A stretch of 64,000 nt of DNA from NCBI RefSeq assembly GCF_000264995.1, contig NW_006767436.1, positions 1,328,800-1,392,799 on the forward strand. The letters run 5' to 3'. The first letter of the stretch is position 1; each line of letters starts with the position of its first letter. The notes under the pieces were generated by a model. That model had not been told where the DNA came from. It saw only the letters and a list, made by a program, of their open reading frames with translations, and did not search any database. This document shows, one piece after another, positions 3,001 to 25,238 of the stretch. Source of the stretch: Punctularia strigosozonata HHB-11173 SS5. Taxonomy: Eukaryota > Basidiomycota > Agaricomycetes > Corticiales > Punctulariaceae. Made by a program: the position numbers and the translations under genes.

Positions 3001-6000
3001 TCGGCGAAGGATTAGGGAAAACTGTTGCATTACGTGGAACCTTGCTCATGCTGAAGACTGTGGTTTCCGTTACACCGGAGCGCATCGAAGCGTTTCTCGT
3101 ATCACTTATGCGACTAGGCTCGAAGTTGGCAAAGGATCACATATCGGCGGCGCCGACGGTCCCAGGATACGAACATGCAGTCCGAGTTTTGATCAGCATA
3201 TTTCAGATATGCGAAACGGGCGTTGCGTTCCTCGGAGAACAACGGCGTTGGTTCATCAACTCGCTTCAGATGATCGTGGACAAGTCCAAAAGCTCGACGA
3301 TGTGCGTGTACGTGCTTGACGTGGCAAGAGACTGGGCGCTCAGCAAGAGGGACCCCTACCCGACTATGAAGGACAAAGCGCAAATCCTGCGGACCATGGT
3401 GGCCTACGAGTCTCGAGGCGATTCGCTCTTCAACAGCTATCTGGAACTAATACTGGACATATATACCGAACCGTCCCTACGGAGGAGTGAGCTCACGACC
3501 CGGCTTGAAGCGGCGTTCATTCTAGGGTGTGATGCGAAGGACACACGTCTCCGAGAGCGATTCATGTCGTTGCTAGACTCCAGCGTTCCCCGGTCGCTCC
3601 ACAATCGCTTGACGTATGTGTTGGGCGTCCAGAGTTGGGAGTCGGTTGCCAGTCACCATTGGATACATATCGCGCTAGCCCTTGTTCTGAGTGCAGCTGA
3701 TGGCGATTACCCCTTGTTACAATCCGTTGTCTCATCTCGTGGGGTCTCCGCGCCATCCTCTCGACGCGTGGGTTCGATCCTCGAACCTATGCGTTGCCTG
3801 CTTTCCGCAGACCCGCAGGTCGCACACGAGATGTGGGTTGCTGTGTTTCCCATCGCGTGGTCTTGTTTGTCCCGCCGAGAGCAAGTTGACATTACGCACC
3901 ACATGATCGCTCTCCTCAGCAGGGAATACCACATCAAGCAGACGGAGTTGCGGCCCAATGTCATCCAGACATTGCTCACCGGTGTTCATGCGTGCACGCC
4001 CCCAATGTTACTTCCGCCCCATCTGGTCAAATATCTGGCCAAGACCTTCGGCGCTTGGCATATCGCGCTCGAAATCCTCGGCGCCTCCTTGGAGCATCTC
4101 CGTGACGAAGAGATTTCTATTCGAGACACAATCTATGATGCGCTTGCCGAGGTGTACGCGGAGATGGCTGAGGAAGACCTCTATTATGGATTGTGGCGTC
4201 GTCGGTGTCTCCATCCAGAAACAAATGTTGCAATCGCTTACGAACAGCATGGGATGTGGGAGCAGGCATGCACCAGCTATGAGACCGCTCAAAGTAGGGC
4301 ACGCTCGGGTGCCATAGCCTTCTCGGAACCTGAGTACTGCTTATGGGAAGATCATTGGGTTTTGGCCAACGAGAAGCTGCAGCACTGGGATCTTCTGTAC
4401 GAACTAGGAAGAAACGAAGCCAATCACGAATTGATGCTCGAAGCCGCCTGGAGAATCAAGGACTGGGGCCAAAACCGTGAAGTGCTTGAAGAGCAAATCA
4501 ACCTTCTTCCCGAGGTTGCGACTCCTCGTCGCCGAGTTTTCGAAGCGTTCATCGCGTTGCTGAAGGCGCCGTCAGCGGTCGAGAAGAATGTCGAATTTAC
4601 TCGAATCCTAGAGGATGCCATGCAGCTATCGCTACGAAAATGGGTTGGTCTTCCTTTCCATCTCTCCGCTGCCCACGTACCTCTTCTGCAGCACTTCCAA
4701 CAATTTGTGGAACTTCAAGAGGCCGTTCAGATATTTGGCTCGCTCTCGGGGACCACGGCGCAAAACCTCGAAAGGAAATCTCAGGATCTCAAAATGGTCT
4801 TGCAAGCCTGGCGGGAGCGATTGCCCAACATTGAGGACGATATCAGTATTTGGAGTGATCTCGTTGCTTGGAGGCAGCGAGTCTTCGATTCCATCAACAA
4901 GGCATATATTCCTCTGATCAGCGGCGGTTCGCAGTCCGGAAATGGGTCCTCCGGGAGCTCCGATACCTTCGGATATCGTGGTTATCATGAGACTGCATGG
5001 ATTATCAACCGTTTCGCACATGTCGCTCGCAAGCACGATCTACTTGAGGTTTGCTTCGCTTACCTGAACAAGATCTATACCTTGCCCAACATCGAGATTT
5101 CTGAAGCGTTCTTAAAGCTGCGCGAGCAGGCTCGCTGCCATTACCAGCGGCCCAACGACCTGCACGCTGGCCTGGAAGTCATTAACAATACGAACCTCCT
5201 ATACTTTTCTCCAGCGCAGAAGGCGGAATTTTTTACTCTGAAGGGGATGTTCCAAGCGCGTTTCGGAAACAATGATGAAGCCAATGCAGCATTCGGACAA
5301 GCAGTGCAGCTGGACATGAACCAGGCGAAGGCGTGGGCAGAATGGGGCAAGTACAACGACCGCATGTTCCAGGAGAACCCGACGGATCTCTCTCACGCCG
5401 CTTCTGCGGTGAGCTGCTACCTACAGGCCGCTGGCATCTTCAAGAATGGCAAGAGCCGACCTCTCCTCGCCCGTGTTCTCTGGCTTCTCAGCGTCGATGA
5501 CAACAGTCTCTTAATTTCGCGGCAGTTCGACCAGTATAAGGGAGATGGTGCTTGGTGGTATTGGATCACGCTGATACCACAACTATGCCTTTCAATGTCC
5601 CAAAGGGAAGTAAGCCAAGCACGATATGTTCTCCTCAATTTGGCGAGGTTGTTTCCCCAAGTTCGTCCATCACAAGCCATCGCAGAGCCATGATATTGAA
5701 GAATTTATTTAGGCGTTGTTTTACCAGCTGCGCACAACACGGGAGGAGATGTCGATTATGAAGAAACGTTTAGCTGCGGTTCAGGCTGTGGACACCGCTC
5801 GACAAGCTGATCAGGACCACTCTATGCAGGATGTAACAACCGCACAAGGAGCAGAGGCAGCGACTGGCCCTGATCAAGCTCGTTCGGGCGTCGACAGTTT
5901 AGCCTCCACCAGCGCGAACGGCACTACGGGAGCCCACACATCATATACCACCAGGCAGCCATGGGACGTTGTTGATGAAGTCGTGAAGATTCTAAAAACG

Positions 6001-18442: not shown

Positions 18443-19914
18443 TCAGGCTTGAGATGCCGCTGCTAGCCGTGCAGCCCTCTTTTCGGTGAGGTGCTGCACG
18501 ATGGACTCGACGTTGGCGGCCGTCATGCGGATCTGCATATCCCATTGCTTGGTGAACGGGGCGCCGGTATCTTCCTCCTCTTGCTCGACATCGCCGAGGC
18601 CGCCGGCCTTGCCCTGGGCATTGTCTTCCTCGCGCTCGCTCTCGAACCATATGAGCTTGTCAACCTGGTCGATCGAGGCCTTAAGACGTCCTTGCTCGAT
18701 CATCTTGCGCGCCATCGTCTCGGCCGCACCAGGGGTGAGGTCGAGCAGCGCACCTAGGCCGCGGAAGGTGATGTTCTTGTAGATTTTCGAGCTCGCGAGC
18801 AGGTTGTGCTCGAGCACGGCGCGGTCCAGCACGGTCGACGGGCCCCTTCGCGTGCTCACGTTGGGCTCTTTGTCATCGTCGTTGTCATCATCAGCCTCGA
18901 CCGCGGCTGCGAGCCGCTCGTTGACCGAGAGCGAGATCTTCGCGAGCTGGTGGGGCTTGAGTGTCTTCTCGAACTCCTTGACTTCGGCCGGGCGGAGAAT
19001 GTGGTCGAGAAACATCTTGGAGAGGATGTTGTGCGTTGGGAGCTCGGACGTGCGCTCGTCGCGGCAGAGGGAAGCGAGGAGTCGGGAGCGGTTTGGGCCG
19101 GCGGGGGCGAGGACGGCGCAGGTGACGGCGGCGGAGAGCATGAACTGGCGTTCGTCCTCGTCAATCTCGCCTGTCCAGGAGAGGTCGTGGTAACGTGCGG
19201 CAGCTTCGAGGAAACGCCGGCTATAGTCCATGATGCGGGCCTGGCAGAGCTTGAAGGAGAGGAGGGTCGCCTTGTCCTGGCATGAGCCGACAAGGAGCGC
19301 GGCGCGGTTATAGTACGTCTCGGCTTGGACGGAGTCTTCGTCTTCGAGGAGGAGGCGGATGATGTAGACGTAGAGCTTGAATTTCTCTTCGTCGTTGCCT
19401 GTCCTATAGGTGGCTACCTGTCAGGAAACTGTAGGCGGCGACCTGAGCGGCGTGGTTCACCTGTTGGCAGAATCAAGCGAAATGCCCATGAGCACTCGTG
19501 CGGCTTCACTCCATTCCTCCTCCGATTCCAGGATTTCTGCCAACTGATATCGCAGGGCGTTCACCTAGTGGGGCGAACGTGGGTATCAGAGCACGGAAGG
19601 TGGACGGACGCGATCAAACTCGCCTGCTCTTCGTAGCTCACTAGCCGCGGCTGTACGACGTCGAGGGTAATCTGGACGACCTTTTTCCGTAGGTCGCTGT
19701 CCGAGATGTCCTTGAACTTCTTCACGATCTCGGAGAGCACCTGGCGGCCGACAACCACGCTATCTTGATTGACGACCGATTCCACGAGAGCGTGCAGATC
19801 TCGAGAGAACGTTGGCTGACTGGTCGTAGCAAAGACATCGTTCACGAGTGCTTGGTAGGCGGCGCCCTTGTCCTTCTGATAGAGTGCGGCGACCTGGGCG
19901 AGTTTCTGGTCCAT
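18443..19914 (-). CDS. CSN4: COP9 signalosome subunit 4
   Basis: CSN4 is a PCI-domain subunit of the COP9 signalosome, which removes Nedd8 from cullins. The minus-strand protein starts MDQKLAQVAALYQKDKG, then ALVESVVNQDSVVVGRQVL and helical repeats. After introns near 19560-19620 and 19390-19470 it continues MDYSRRFLEAAARYHDLSW, a segment diagnostic of CSN4. It goes on through the PCI winged helix (ITFRGLGALLDLTPGAAET, DQVDKLIWFES) to the C-terminal helix SIVQHLTEKRAARLAAASQA. An acidic loop (ADDDNDDDKEP) sits before the winged helix. Its stop lies 92 bp from that of the convergent CTD kinase. The ATG at 19912-19914 matches the usual family N-terminus. Confidence 0.93.
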
Positions 19915-20436
19915 CGTGTGGCGGGGACACGGTCAATGGTGGCGGTGCATCACCGGGCGACTAATAGCGCGTCTCTCGAGGCCGTCTCGCGCTCGTTCTC
20001 AACATCCGTGACTGTGGTGCATCTTTGGTGCACTTGCTGTGGGTCTGGTGAGATACGGCGTCTGCTCTTTGATTATCATCAGCTGGGCTGAGAGGCTCGC
20101 ACGGCATTTGCTGAGGTGGACGGCCTGTGAGAGGCTGCATCTTCCCTCGCCCGCCCGGTCGCCATCACGACTTGATACCCAATCACGCCCGACGGCGCCC
20201 CCGGCTCTCTTAAGCACCTTTCGCCTTCCCTCGCACGTCGTGCTCCTACGGCTGCCCTGCTCGTGCTCGTAGCTGCTCGTGCCCTTCTCCTTTCGTTCCG
20301 ACGACTGCAAAGACGACCCCAGCGTCCTTCCAGCTAAGCTGCTAGACGGCTTCCTGCGACCCCCCTCTCACCTTCTTCGTCCTTCGTTCCTTTCACCGCT
20401 TCTTCAATTTCAGAGATTTGTTTGCCACCCGGAGTG
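19915..20436. promoter_or_regulatory. Divergent promoter region, CSN4 / YP-repeat gene
   Basis: This 522-bp gap lies between the CSN4 start and the start of the repeat protein, which are transcribed in opposite directions. The half nearest the repeat gene is strongly pyrimidine-rich (about 20290-20410), a common feature of fungal transcription start regions. No TATA box is obvious. Confidence 0.45.
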
Positions 20437-23400
20437 ATGTCTCGTCTCACCAATCCCGTCTTCAACAAGCCCTCGCCCTTCGACGTCCCTCGCCCGGCCC
20501 ACCCGCTCAGCCCGCCAGACACCGAGTCCGAGTTCATGGCCGCCCACCACCTCTCCCACGCGACCGTCCCGATACAGATGGCGTCTAGCGGCCTTGGGTT
20601 AGAGACCGAGCCTGCGACAAGCCACGCCCCGGTGCCAGGATCTTCGACCAACCCGACGGAGACTCCCGGGGCTCGGTTGCGACGGGTCGCCTACATCAAC
20701 TCTGGACTGCGGGACACGAGGGACCGCGAGAGCCGTGACCGCTCAGCACAGAGAAATCTTCGCTGGCTCGTCGTCGTTCTCCCTCCTGCTACAATTTCGG
20801 AGGCGCAGAGTCACCACGTCGGACACACGCTCTCGACCGGGCCGCAACACCGTCTGTCGCACGGGATCCTGATGCCGTTGTTCCCTACAGTGAGTACTCG
20901 CATTTGGTGCCATCAGCGATTATGTTTGGTTCTGACTGCACTCTCAGATGTACGGTCAGCTCACGGCGATTGCGAAAGAGTTCAGCTTCCCGAGCACCAC
21001 AGGGATATGCCTGTATTTGCACATGACGGAGGCCGGGATCACGATGACTCCCCGCATCTCGGAGGAAACCTGGTCGCTCCTCTGGGGACACCTGTTCGAC
21101 GCCCGGGCACCTCAGGCCCCTGCACATCCACTCCCGATTGGCGGCCGCATCGAGTTCGATCTCGACCTCCGCAAAGCAAGGTGGTACGAGCCTTGGCTGA
21201 CCGCGTCTCGCAGGGAGGCCGCCGACCTCCCCATCTCGGTGCCTCCGTCGCTCTCACATTGGCGACACGATAGCCGGGGCAGCGTGGGCCTCGGAGACGA
21301 CCGTCGGAGTTATGTTGAAGAGAGCTCGCCCGACGACGTCCCCGACGCCGCGTCCATCATCCAGCGAACCCCTGCGCAGCGACATGTACCGCGCAAATTA
21401 TCGCTCCTCGACCGATTCGAGACCGCCTCTCAGCTCTCCTTCAGAGCTCCCGTGCCGCCCCCGCTGCGCCCCTCTCCACCGTACTCCGAACAGATCCCGC
21501 CCGAGCAGCGGAGTCACACGCTGACGCCGATCGCTCAACAGGAGGAGCCGCAGTCCGCGAAGCGCGACCTCGAATCGCGCGTGAACACCTGGCGGGAGAG
21601 TGCGACGGTGCTCAAGACACCCATGGCCGCGCGTGGGCAGGTCAGCCTCGACCCGGCAAACCTGCCCAACTCGGTTTCGCTCAATGACCCGATTATCGCC
21701 CGCGCAGCAGCAGAGGAGGAGGAGGTGCAGTCCGAGCTCAACTTAGACGACTTCACGTGGAGCATCTCGAGCGCGGGGCCACCGAGCGACGCGAGCATAT
21801 CCCCGGTCGCCTGGGAATACGTCCTGTCTCCGCATCTCGACAGGCGCCTGCAGGGCTCCGTGTGCCTCACGCCGTCTGTGTGCACATCATTCGGCCCGGA
21901 GGACTACGACGTCGAGTACTCGCCCGTCTCGAACGCCTGGCGGTTGCCTAGCCCAGATCTCGGCATGCGCATGATGTCGGATTGCCCGCCCACGCCGACG
22001 ACGGCGACAAGCTGGGGCCCCGCTTCCTGGCCAGCGTCGCCCGCAGAGTACAGCCGCCCGCCGTCCGTACACCTTGGCGACCGCGCTGTCTTCAGCCGTC
22101 CAGCGACACCGACGACCGCCACGAGCTGGGGACCGCCTTCGTGGCCCGCGTCTCCCGCGCTGAGCACCTTCAGTCGCGCGTCCTCGGTTGATCTTGGACA
22201 TCGCGCGATGTTCTCCCCCGTCCACGGCCACTTTGCCCTGCCGGCTCGTAGCCTCGTCTTCCCTTACTACAACGCTTGGAAAGGCGCTGTGTGGAATCAC
22301 GTCTGGCCTTACACAGCTCATCGGGAGGTCGTGCCAAAGACCGCTCCTGGTGAACCCCATGGGGACGCAGCCTACCCGTATCTTCGCTTGTACGCTGCTG
22401 CATATCCTCATTTCGACCTGTACCCGCCGAAGGCAGGCGAGCTCAAGGTGGACGTGTCCAAGTCGCTGCCCGTCAGCCTCATCGCGAGGTATCCGGCTTT
22501 CAACCTTTACCCGGCGGTATATCCCAACATCGAGTTGTATCCGGTTGTGCCGCGGATAGAGCGTGTCAAGGCTTCGAGGACAACCGGAGTAGCTGTCAAG
22601 CTTGCGAAGGAGTACCCAATCCTCGACATCTGTGAGTTATGTCCTCCGCCGTGACTGAACTGGACTGATCGCTATGGTAGACCCGGCCGTGTATCCTTAC
22701 AACGTTTCAGATATATATGCTCCGGTTGCTGTTGATGAATCGTCGTACTACAAGTCGCAGTCGGTCGTCTTGCGTGCTGCCTACCCTGCGTTCAATCTCT
22801 ACCCGGCAAGCTACCCAACAATCTGCATATATCCGAGCGCGACTGGGCTCATTGCTGCGAATGCGCTGAACGTGCATCGAATTCGCATCGCTTCCCGTCA
22901 GGCATCTCGAGAGTACCCGGATTTCGACCTTTATCCCGCTGACCAGAGGATTGACGATACGTACTACTACAAGAGTCTTCGCGTCCTCCTAGATGGCGCC
23001 TCTATGTTGTACCCTGCATTCGACATCTACCCCGGCCGGGACCAATCTTCGTTCATCCACCGCCAAACAGTGGTTGGGCAGTACCCTGACATAGTCCTGT
23101 ACCCCCAGGGACAAAAGATCGACGATACGTTTTACTACAAGTCCCTTTCGGTCTCGCTGAGCGGCGCTGTTTCGCATTATCCTCATTTGGTCATCTACCC
23201 GTCGCAGGAAGTCTCGTCGCCGATCTCGCCGAATGCACGCAAAGCCCCGCCCACCAGGATCATTGCTGGAGGAAACAACGTCCGAAGGCCTCTCAAGTCC
23301 CCGATGCCAATTCGTCGGCGGTTGTCCATCACGAGGGCGCCCATGCCCCCCGTTCCACGTCTGCCGCGCACTGCCCAGATGATGCCCATGAGCCCTCGCC

Positions 23401-25238
23401 TGCCACCGCCAAGACGTGAGCGGGCCGACACGTTGAACAGCACTCCGGTCTCTTTGTCGACGTATCCCCATCTTTGCATTTGTGAGTCTTGCAACATGGG
23501 GCGTCCCTCCGATTTCTCAATCTTGTTTTTGCCTTAGATCCAGCGGCTTATCCCCATCTGGAGATATATCCGGCTGTGGCGGCATGCTTGGAGGAGCCAT
23601 TGTCGTGGACGGGCTTTGATACGGTGTATCCTGCCTTTGATCTCTGTAAGCTCCTTCCCTTGCATGCGCTCGACCCATTTGGTTAACACTAGGTTAGATC
23701 CAGCTGTGTATCCACAATTCAGCATTTATCCTGCTGTGATCGTCGCTGAGGATGCACCCTCCTGGACTGGCTTCGACGTTGTTTATCCCTTCTTACGTAT
23801 CTGTGAGCGCACCCCGTTCTTTTCATCCGTCCTTCCGCTGACAATTATGAAGATCCTGCTGTGTATCCCCATCTAGAGATTTACCCGATGGCAAGTTTGG
23901 CTGGCGAAGACGTAGAGCTTGTTGCCATGTACCCCATCATGTGCATCTGTGAGCGAGGTCATTATTTCAAGCCGTCCACTTAGTGATCTCGACGCCCCAG
24001 ATCCGTCACAATATCCGTACTTCGAGATTTATCCGGGTGAGGTTTGCGACGGCAGTGTTGAGGCATATCAGAAATCGACGTCCGTGGTCCTTGCACCTGC
24101 CTACCCCGCCTTCAATAATTGTGAGTTTTCTAGGCTTCGCCCATTGTCTGATTCTGAACGTGATTGTAGATCCGGCGCAGTATCCCGCGTTCGAGATCTA
24201 TCCAGGGGAGGTTTCCATGGGGGAACTGACTTTATGCCGACCATTGTCTGTTAGACTTCCGGCAAAGTATCCTGCTTTCCAGATATGTCAGTGCAATGAT
24301 AGCTGCTTCTTCAGGCCGTGTACTGATTCCAAGCCTTTCAGACGCTGCTGAATACCCGTGCTTCGCGATCTATCCTGGCTCGACGCATGCTCCCGCTGTA
24401 TACGGACGTCATCACCGCTCCCACAGGGAGCTCCACGATGAAGTTGTCGCGCACTTCCCCGGTCTTTTTCGTCGCCGAATCCATACCCACGCGCAGCTAC
24501 ATGATCAAGTGATGAGCGAGGGTGGCATGAACTCCATTACTCAGGTAGAATCACCGCGCTCAGTGGTATCCGTTCCGATATCCCGCTCCCGTTCCGGAAG
24601 CCTAAGCTCACGACCGGCCGCGCCGTCTCTTGCGGCTGTGCCCGCAAGAATGGGTCCACCATCACCTGCGCCCTCGAGGAGGTTACCACCGATACCTGCC
24701 AGCCCTTTAACACCTGATATGAAGCTCGCGACTGCACCTTCGACCACCCTCCCTTCAAGCCGTTCCGCCGGATTGGGTCGCCACTTGTCCTCTGCCACTC
24801 GGCCGTTACCAAGCATCAGGGGTACAATGACCAGCATGTCATCACTTCCAGACAGTGCAGAGTCATCGAAACTAGAGTCGATGCCCGCACCGCATCCTAC
24901 TGCGGAATCGCTTGACCGCTCAAGGTCGTTGTCAAGTGCTACGAGACCTCACGCGCTGATGAAGCGGAATAGCCTGGTCCTGGAGCGAGCCCGCGCATTC
25001 AACACTGCGACCAATTCAACAAGTCAGTGTGATGACCCATTAGATATCCGCCGATACTCATTCGATTCATTCCATCTTTCTAGGTAACGCACCCGACCAT
25101 CCCATGCGAATCACTAAGGAAGCGTTGGCACAATTCCCTATGCCTCCGCGTCCCCCCTTGCCTTCTGCGCCCAACGCTGGGGGTGCCAGACCTGTCTCCG
25201 TCGCGAAGCTGGACCGGTCCAAGTTCCCCTTCGCATAA
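20437..25238 (+). CDS. Unnamed protein with about 24 Tyr-Pro repeat boxes in symmetric exons
   Basis: I do not recognise this family. Ten exons can be traced: 20437-20889, 20948-22631, 22681-23481, 23538-23645, 23698-23802, 23853-23948, 24001-24120, 24170-24286, 24342-25022, 25084-25238. The N-terminal part is globular-looking (YGQLTAIAKEFSFPSTTGI, ETWSLLWGHLFDARAP). A Ser/Pro-rich region with two copies of TPTTATSWGPxSWPASPA (about 21990-22165) follows. From about 22370 to 24390 the protein is a run of boxes of the form YP-x-hydrophobic-x-hydrophobic-YP, such as YPAFNLYP, YPNIELYP, YPDFDLYP and YPHLEIYP. Every intron from 22632 to 24341 cuts the same Tyr codon after its first base (phase 1), so exons 3-8 are all symmetric and each small one carries two boxes. 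The tail is Pro/Ser-rich, basic and probably disordered. There is no signal peptide or membrane helix. Function is unknown. Confidence 0.85.
21978..22178 (+). repeat. Two-copy direct repeat inside the YP-repeat gene
   Basis: Two adjacent units of about 40 codons each carry TPTTATSWGPASWPASPA or TPTTATSWGPPSWPASPA. Each is followed by a Ser-rich stretch and a conserved SV-x-LG-x-RA-x-FS end. It looks like an in-frame tandem duplication inside exon 2, separate from the Tyr-Pro boxes downstream. Confidence 0.75.
22370..24395 (+). repeat. Array of Tyr-Pro boxes with co-duplicated introns
   Basis: About 24 boxes follow the pattern YP-x-[FILV]-x-[ILV]-Y. In the distal part each exon (23538-23645, 23698-23802, 23853-23948, 24001-24120, 24170-24286) contains two boxes, is an exact multiple of three (108, 105, 96, 120 and 117 nt) and is flanked by phase-1 introns of 50-55 nt. 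Six of the seven incoming exons begin with an ATCC or ACCC-type sequence completing Tyr-Pro; the one at 24342 starts with ACGC and gives Tyr-Ala. The layout is best explained by repeated duplication of an exon together with its intron. Confidence 0.85.

Follow-up and report, generated by a model that had tools for sequence, protein, structure and literature searches.

Background

Tandem duplication of symmetric (1-1) exons occurs in many animal repeat proteins. Vincent et al. are said to have reported in 2003 that PalA and ALIX bind the short sequence YPXL/I. Recruitment of ALIX through YPDL and YPXnL motifs is also described in PMC2803184. This study concerns a gene with some likeness to both systems, found in a 64,000-nucleotide stretch of the genome of Punctularia strigosozonata HHB-11173 SS5 (contig NW_006767436.1, positions 1,328,800 to 1,392,799 of the forward strand; hereafter the window). 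The gene, at 20437-25238 of the window on the plus strand, encodes a protein containing a long array of boxes that begin and end with Tyr-Pro, and will be referred to as the YP-box gene. Its exon boundaries were inferred from splice signals, reading frame and repeat register; the resulting model has 10 exons and encodes 1,439 amino acids with no internal stop in frame. A first-pass annotation of this DNA had given its coordinates, where each intron starts and in what phase, and the lengths of the exons; all proved accurate when the sequence was read again.

Number and arrangement of the boxes

The repeat has the eight-residue consensus YP-x-[FLI]-x-[IL]-YP, with the commonest residues giving YP-[AH]-[FL]-[DE]-[IL]-YP. 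A strict definition (YP-x-[FLIMV]-x-[ILVFM]-YP) identifies 20 boxes, while a looser one, allowing [FLIMVAN] at position 4, [ILVFMN] at position 6 and Y[PA] at the end, identifies 23. Counting one broken copy, YPYNVSDIYA, there are 24, matching the approximate number originally claimed. This is far above the level expected by chance, as no more than one strict box was present in any of 5,000 shuffles of the whole protein. At the level of DNA, the pattern TAYCC-N13-TAYCC, to which boxes cut by an intron are invisible, occurs 15 times in the window against an expectation of 0.20, a count that none of 100 shuffles reached. Residues 621-1180 contain every one of the protein's 45 YP dipeptides. In the strict set of 20, F (10), L (6), I (3) or M (1) occupies position 4 and I (13) or L (7) position 6, with D or E at position 5 in ten and A or H at position 3 in ten.

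Most boxes occur in pairs. Ten double-box units account for 19 of the 23 boxes plus the broken copy, and in all ten the two boxes start 10 residues apart; the other four are single. Steps between successive units or single boxes range from 24 to 95 residues, 11 of the 13 being 32-44 and the remaining two 24 and 95. The arrangement along the window is as follows.

22373-22426, plus strand: double-box unit U1, residues 627-644, no intron
22490-22543, plus strand: double-box unit U2, residues 666-683, no intron
22613-22721, plus strand: double-box unit U3, residues 707-726, with a broken second box and intron 22632-22680 in a Tyr codon
22782-22835, plus strand: double-box unit U4, residues 747-764, no intron
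22914-23201, plus strand: four single boxes, at residues 791, 823, 847 and 879, no introns
23463-23572, plus strand: double-box unit U5, intron 23482-23537 in a Tyr codon
23627-23732, plus strand: double-box unit U6, intron 23646-23697 in a Tyr codon
23784-23887, plus strand: double-box unit U7, intron 23803-23852 in a Tyr codon
23930-24035, plus strand: double-box unit U8, intron 23949-24000 in a Tyr codon
24102-24204, plus strand: double-box unit U9, intron 24121-24169 in a Tyr codon
24268-24376, plus strand: double-box unit U10, intron 24287-24341 in a Tyr codon

Position of the introns

Nine introns interrupt the gene model, and the retention of any single one of them results in a stop. 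Two lie outside the array, at 20890-20947 (phase 0) and 25023-25083 (phase 1). The seven within it are all phase 1 and 49-56 nt in length, and delimit the exons listed below.

20437-20889, plus strand: exon 1, including the start of an N-terminal domain common to a paralogue (from about 20758, by alignment with the paralogue)
20948-22631, plus strand: exon 2, with the remainder of the N-terminal domain, which ends at about 21214, a Ser/Pro-rich middle and the first boxes
22681-23481, plus strand: exon 3, 801 nt, symmetric 1-1, with internal boxes lacking introns
23538-23645, plus strand: exon 4, 108 nt, symmetric 1-1
23698-23802, plus strand: exon 5, 105 nt, symmetric 1-1, duplicate of exon 4
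23853-23948, plus strand: exon 6, 96 nt, symmetric 1-1
24001-24120, plus strand: exon 7, 120 nt, symmetric 1-1
24170-24286, plus strand: exon 8, 117 nt, symmetric 1-1, duplicate of exon 7
24342-25022, plus strand: exon 9, with the last box followed by a Ser/Pro-rich tail
25084-25238, plus strand: exon 10, containing the stop codon

Every one of the seven array introns splits, after its first base, the second Tyr codon of whichever box comes first in a double-box unit, and none was found within any second box or any of the four single boxes. Were seven introns placed at random in the 1,641-nt array, the chance of all of them striking such Tyr codons of the 23 boxes would be about 1e-13. The six exons between them are all multiples of three and symmetric, their lengths being 801, 108, 105, 96, 120 and 117 nt. 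The original description, in which seven introns interrupt the same Tyr codon one base in and leave six symmetric exons, is thus borne out by coordinates and phases. The regularity holds for these seven introns rather than for the array as a whole, since the intron is missing from three of the ten double-box units (those starting at residues 627, 666 and 747) as well as from all four single boxes.

Growth of the array

Exons 4-8 resemble one another along their full length. All 10 pairwise protein comparisons, boxes included, give z-scores of 4.4-13.4 relative to shuffled sequences; exons 4 and 5 are identical at 20 of 35 aligned residues (z = 13.4) and exons 7 and 8 at 21 of 39 (z = 11.3). 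This full-length match implies that the small exons were copied whole. DNA identity between these exons is 0.62-0.68. When the boxes are masked, 13 of 91 pairs of linkers still match at p <= 0.02, compared with approximately two expected, the strongest being S823/S879, U6/U7, U4/S879, U4/S823, U4/U9 and U4/S847 (S marking the single boxes). For the masked linkers of U6 and U7, corresponding to exons 4 and 5, the score was reached by none of 500 shuffles, which shows that these two exons were copied with linker and intron site together; those of U9 and U10, corresponding to exons 7 and 8, show no clear match (p = 0.09). The copying of whole exons with their introns, as the likely origin of the exon 4-8 part of the array, is therefore well supported.

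Other parts of the array seem to have expanded differently. The linkers preceding boxes 823 and 879, in an intron-free stretch of exon 3, have IDDT[YF]YYKSL in common, and this likeness implies that intron-free parts of exon 3 were duplicated too. The resemblance between the intron-free unit U4 and the intron-bearing U9 likewise implies that copying was followed by the loss or gain of introns. The first-pass annotation had proposed that the gene grew by tandem duplication of an exon with its intron. For exons 4-8 the proposal stands, on the basis of full-length similarity, a single intron position and the absence of AG|G at the splice sites, but it does not serve as the whole story: 12 of the 23 boxes begin upstream of exon 4, three of the ten units are intron-free, and duplication without introns has also to be accommodated.

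Alternatively, the seven introns could have been inserted independently at one place in repeats that already existed, rather than being copied with the exons. This would fit with the three intron-free units out of ten, and with the introns themselves, which have no more sequence in common than controls do: the mean z-score over their 21 pairs is 0.24 (the best being 2.2, p = 0.023), compared with 0.46 over 15 control pairs that include an intron from outside the array. Similarity between introns is, however, expected for recent copies only, such that an old duplication would explain their divergence, and loss of introns would explain the gaps. Repeated independent insertion would be favoured by the proto-splice consensus AG|G, and the sequence flanking the array introns is T|A in all seven cases and AG|G in none. 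As the exon pairs also match along their full length, independent insertion appears improbable.

Age of the array and selection

For the seven intron-bearing units, an alignment over 18 codons was anchored on the position of the intron only, and no residue was required to match. Pairwise differences at the first, second and third codon positions are 0.34, 0.24 and 0.63 respectively. Invariant in all seven units are the Tyr-Pro with which the first box opens, the second Tyr of that box, and the Tyr-Pro that starts the second box. These codon patterns show that the array is old and has been kept by selection on the protein; the age of the expansion is read from introns that resemble one another no more than controls do and from third codon positions that are scrambled. 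The suggestion that any number of units can be gained or lost without a shift of frame follows from the phases of all six exons; exon DNA identity, introns and third positions give no sign in this one genome that such gain or loss has happened recently or continues at present.

Relatives of the protein and distribution of the box

Large as it is, and although it has a paralogue, this fungal protein belongs to no curated Pfam family. Pfam returned no family for the whole 1,439-residue sequence at E-values up to 10. In the PDB, a comparison that covered exon 2 and the boxes, the exon-2 protein had no match, and the single match of the box profile, at E = 1.6, was taken as chance. Six box strings were found nowhere in the literature searched, and among the papers listed for formulas of the box, none contained a counted one. 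These results agree with the earlier assertion that no named family has this repeat.

The N-terminal region has one paralogue in the same genome, on another contig (E = 4.7e-8, 32% identity; 33% identity for a shortened copy). It lies at L017 3721-5754 (G000:C1 3674220-3676253), in a 677-residue open frame that matches Pfam only below the cut-off. The paralogue has long stretches of low complexity, and visual inspection of its two long open frames revealed no YP box. A weak match in the genome, L029 (E = 0.03), carries no box and was set aside; L064 and L071 also came to nothing.

The box pattern was also searched for throughout the 33.6-Mb genome, with the reversed pattern as a control. Of 28 matches, 15 are in the YP-box gene and 13 elsewhere, compared with nine for the reversed pattern, which implies that the box is no motif in common use across the genome. 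Twelve of the 13 were dropped by eye as having no convincing coding context. The exception, L018 (also L033), is at about 4715-5343 (G000:C3): a small four-exon gene model of approximately 153 residues, with one YPALEIYP just after an intron and a sequence otherwise unrelated to the YP-box protein. It has no Pfam match and no paralogue in the genome beyond a match at E = 0.08. One of the rejected candidates, a 66-codon frame at L032 1429-1626 (G000:C3, near 1504377), contains a YP-rich tandem of six residues (YPPLRVYPSSAPYPLPTLY...) with one pattern match, and was taken as a simple repeat. Mushroom genomes may also encode small proteins and YP-box proteins of a comparable kind.

Beyond this genome, the double-box DNA pattern occurs in no stretch of the viral contigs, and its three loci in prokaryote genomes were rejected because all are low-complexity repeats on translation. 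These loci, from metagenome-assembled genomes (L058 at 7406, L059 at 4923 and 5073, and L060 at 130), encode LY- or CLYLYP-type stretches. Translated searches (tblastn) with exon 3 against the viral contigs and with a 101-residue N-terminal piece against the prokaryote genomes detected no relative.

Possible functions of the boxes

The reading favoured here, with a probability of approximately 0.42, is that the YP-box protein is a scaffold of repeated docking motifs, whose N-terminal domain does a separate job. Each box would lie stretched out as a strand in a groove of the partner, held there by the hydrophobic residues that alternate along it and by the Tyr-Pro pairs at its two ends, and the many boxes would give a multivalent assembly of high avidity on one scaffold. 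The job of the N-terminal domain would be common to the paralogue, which by eye is box-free. Skipping or duplication of an exon would alter the number of docking sites while keeping the frame; the number might therefore be tunable without a break in frame because the small exons are symmetric. In favour of docking are the frequency of the boxes far above chance, the evidence of selection on the protein, and the homology of exons and linkers. The observation of an N-terminal paralogue without a box is also consistent with it, as is the lone YPALEIYP in the unrelated L018, where a docking motif might turn up.

Several observations weigh against this reading. Elsewhere in the genome there is no clear enrichment of the box pattern (13 matches against nine for the control), with only one convincing coding context, and the single-box gene L018 may itself be due to chance. 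Furthermore, the fairly regular spacing, with 11 of 13 steps at 32-44 residues, and the repeated strand-like linkers, YYKSxSVxL, would equally suit a folded repeat. The strongest rival to docking is a structural role, in which the double-box unit (YPxFxIYP-Ax-YPxFxIYP) would form a beta hairpin, or the array a beta-rich stack or self-assembling filament. The alternation of hydrophobic residues and the constant 10-residue offset between box starts in all ten pairs, one of them with a broken second box, point the same way. A recount of the spacing moved the odds slightly towards such a beta repeat and lowered those of docking from 0.45 to the value given above.

A 179-residue part of exon 3 (predicted from one sequence) was modelled with a mean predicted local distance difference test (pLDDT) score of 33 and a confidence below 50 at all residues, and 101 residues of the N-terminal domain (also from one sequence) with a mean pLDDT of 52. 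The strands in the low-confidence exon-3 model are mostly placed on linkers and on a few boxes, which might favour a beta repeat, but nothing firm can be drawn from a model of this confidence. Moreover, two of the steps, at 24 and 95 residues, do not keep to the period. On balance a folded or self-assembling array seems somewhat unlikely.

Docking could also be narrower in kind, with the boxes bound by the V domain that proteins of the Bro1 family possess (Rim20/PalA or Bro1, fungal relatives of ALIX), in which case the protein would be predicted to act as a multivalent adaptor of the endosomal sorting complexes required for transport (ESCRT) or of the ambient-pH pathway. Rra2 of Cryptococcus was considered as well, because of its link to the Rim pathway (PMC12345238). 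YPx[LI] is present in 10 of 23 boxes and YPxxx[LI] in 22, and the genome contains two V-domain genes (PF13949, ALIX_LYPXL_bnd; best E-values 6.3e-41 and 2.1e-30, over four matched pieces), of which L019 was judged Rim20-like and L020 Bro1-like by eye from their frames. Between ALIX and a fragment of the Rim20-like gene there is a weak alignment (E = 0.088), with FYN[DE]L in common, but the Bro1-like fragment has no ALIX match in the PDB. Bro1 and Rim20 are in any case expected in most fungi, so their presence says little. The second Tyr-Pro is not known to be required by such motifs, yet is nearly as constant as the first, and the Phe found at position 4 in 10 of 20 strict boxes is not a known requirement either. 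V-domain binding is hence decidedly unlikely.

Two further classes of motif are less probable. If PxIxIT and YxxPhi are taken as generally defined, the boxes might be calcineurin-docking sites of the former type or sorting signals of the latter; the loose form P-x-[FILV]-x-[ILV] does occur in 21 of 23 boxes, and Yxx[LIMFV] in all 23. The stricter core P[^P]I[^P][IV] is found in just one of the 23, however, and neither motif explains the second Tyr-Pro, which makes either identification very improbable. More remote still is a precursor that would be secreted and cleaved by Kex2 into repeated peptides (a Kex2-processed repeat protein, KEP). As with the proteins described in PMC7329392, this is a fungal protein with many short repeats, but it differs from them in having no visible signal peptide, there being no hydrophobic stretch in residues 1-40 as judged by eye, and in lacking a KR or RR site per unit, such sites in the array being confined to residues 914-957. 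Processing by Kex2 therefore appears extremely improbable.

Returning to docking scaffolds, one fuller picture would be of an unnamed fungal family in which the boxes are strand-like docking sites for one partner, the introns within the motif act as a dial for valency, the number of sites being tuned by skipping or gaining exons while the frame is kept, and the protein serves as a scaffold in signalling or trafficking, perhaps on Bro1/Rim20; this combination is a long shot. Were the boxes docking motifs of any kind, one protein would hold a ladder of about two dozen natural motif variants, which would help in finding the fungal binding groove. It would also allow the evolution of valency to be asked about, as the exon layout makes the number of units countable across species. 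Were they structural, the array would represent a repeat fold for which Pfam has no model.

Other features of the gene and its surroundings

Base composition changes along the gene. Over 20437-25022 the guanine and cytosine content at third codon positions drops from 0.75-0.76 in exons 1-2 to 0.65 in exon 3 and 0.47-0.58 in exons 4-9, and Tyr is encoded by TAT at 30 of 59 codons within the array compared with two of 14 outside it. Exon 2 contains a second internal repeat, distinct from the YP boxes, at 21992-22216. It consists of two tandem copies of a unit in which TPTTATSWGPxSWPASP is followed by a VxLGxRAxFS stretch; a search of the genome with it gave other matches no better than E = 0.12.

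Upstream, a divergent neighbour at 18443-19932 on the minus strand resembles subunit 4 of the COP9 signalosome. PSMD12-CSN4_N and PCI domains are found in its 18443-19420 portion, and the piece at 19561-19932 has no Pfam match. The starts of this gene and of the YP-box gene are approximately 500 bases apart.

Comparison with known systems

The layout of the YP-box gene is unusual. With tandem duplication of symmetric exons, the gene has in common its small 1-1 exons, a single intron position that is repeated, and units whose number is neutral to the frame. It differs in being compact, the repeated site carrying introns just 49-56 nt long, in having that site inside the motif's own Tyr codon, and in having introns in only part of the array. 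With the YPX[LI] and YPXnL ligands of PalA/Rim20, Bro1 and ALIX, the box has in common a Tyr-Pro followed at some spacing by Leu or Ile; it is set apart from them by its second Tyr-Pro and its alternating hydrophobic residues, neither of which is known to belong to that motif, and by being present in approximately two dozen copies in one protein.

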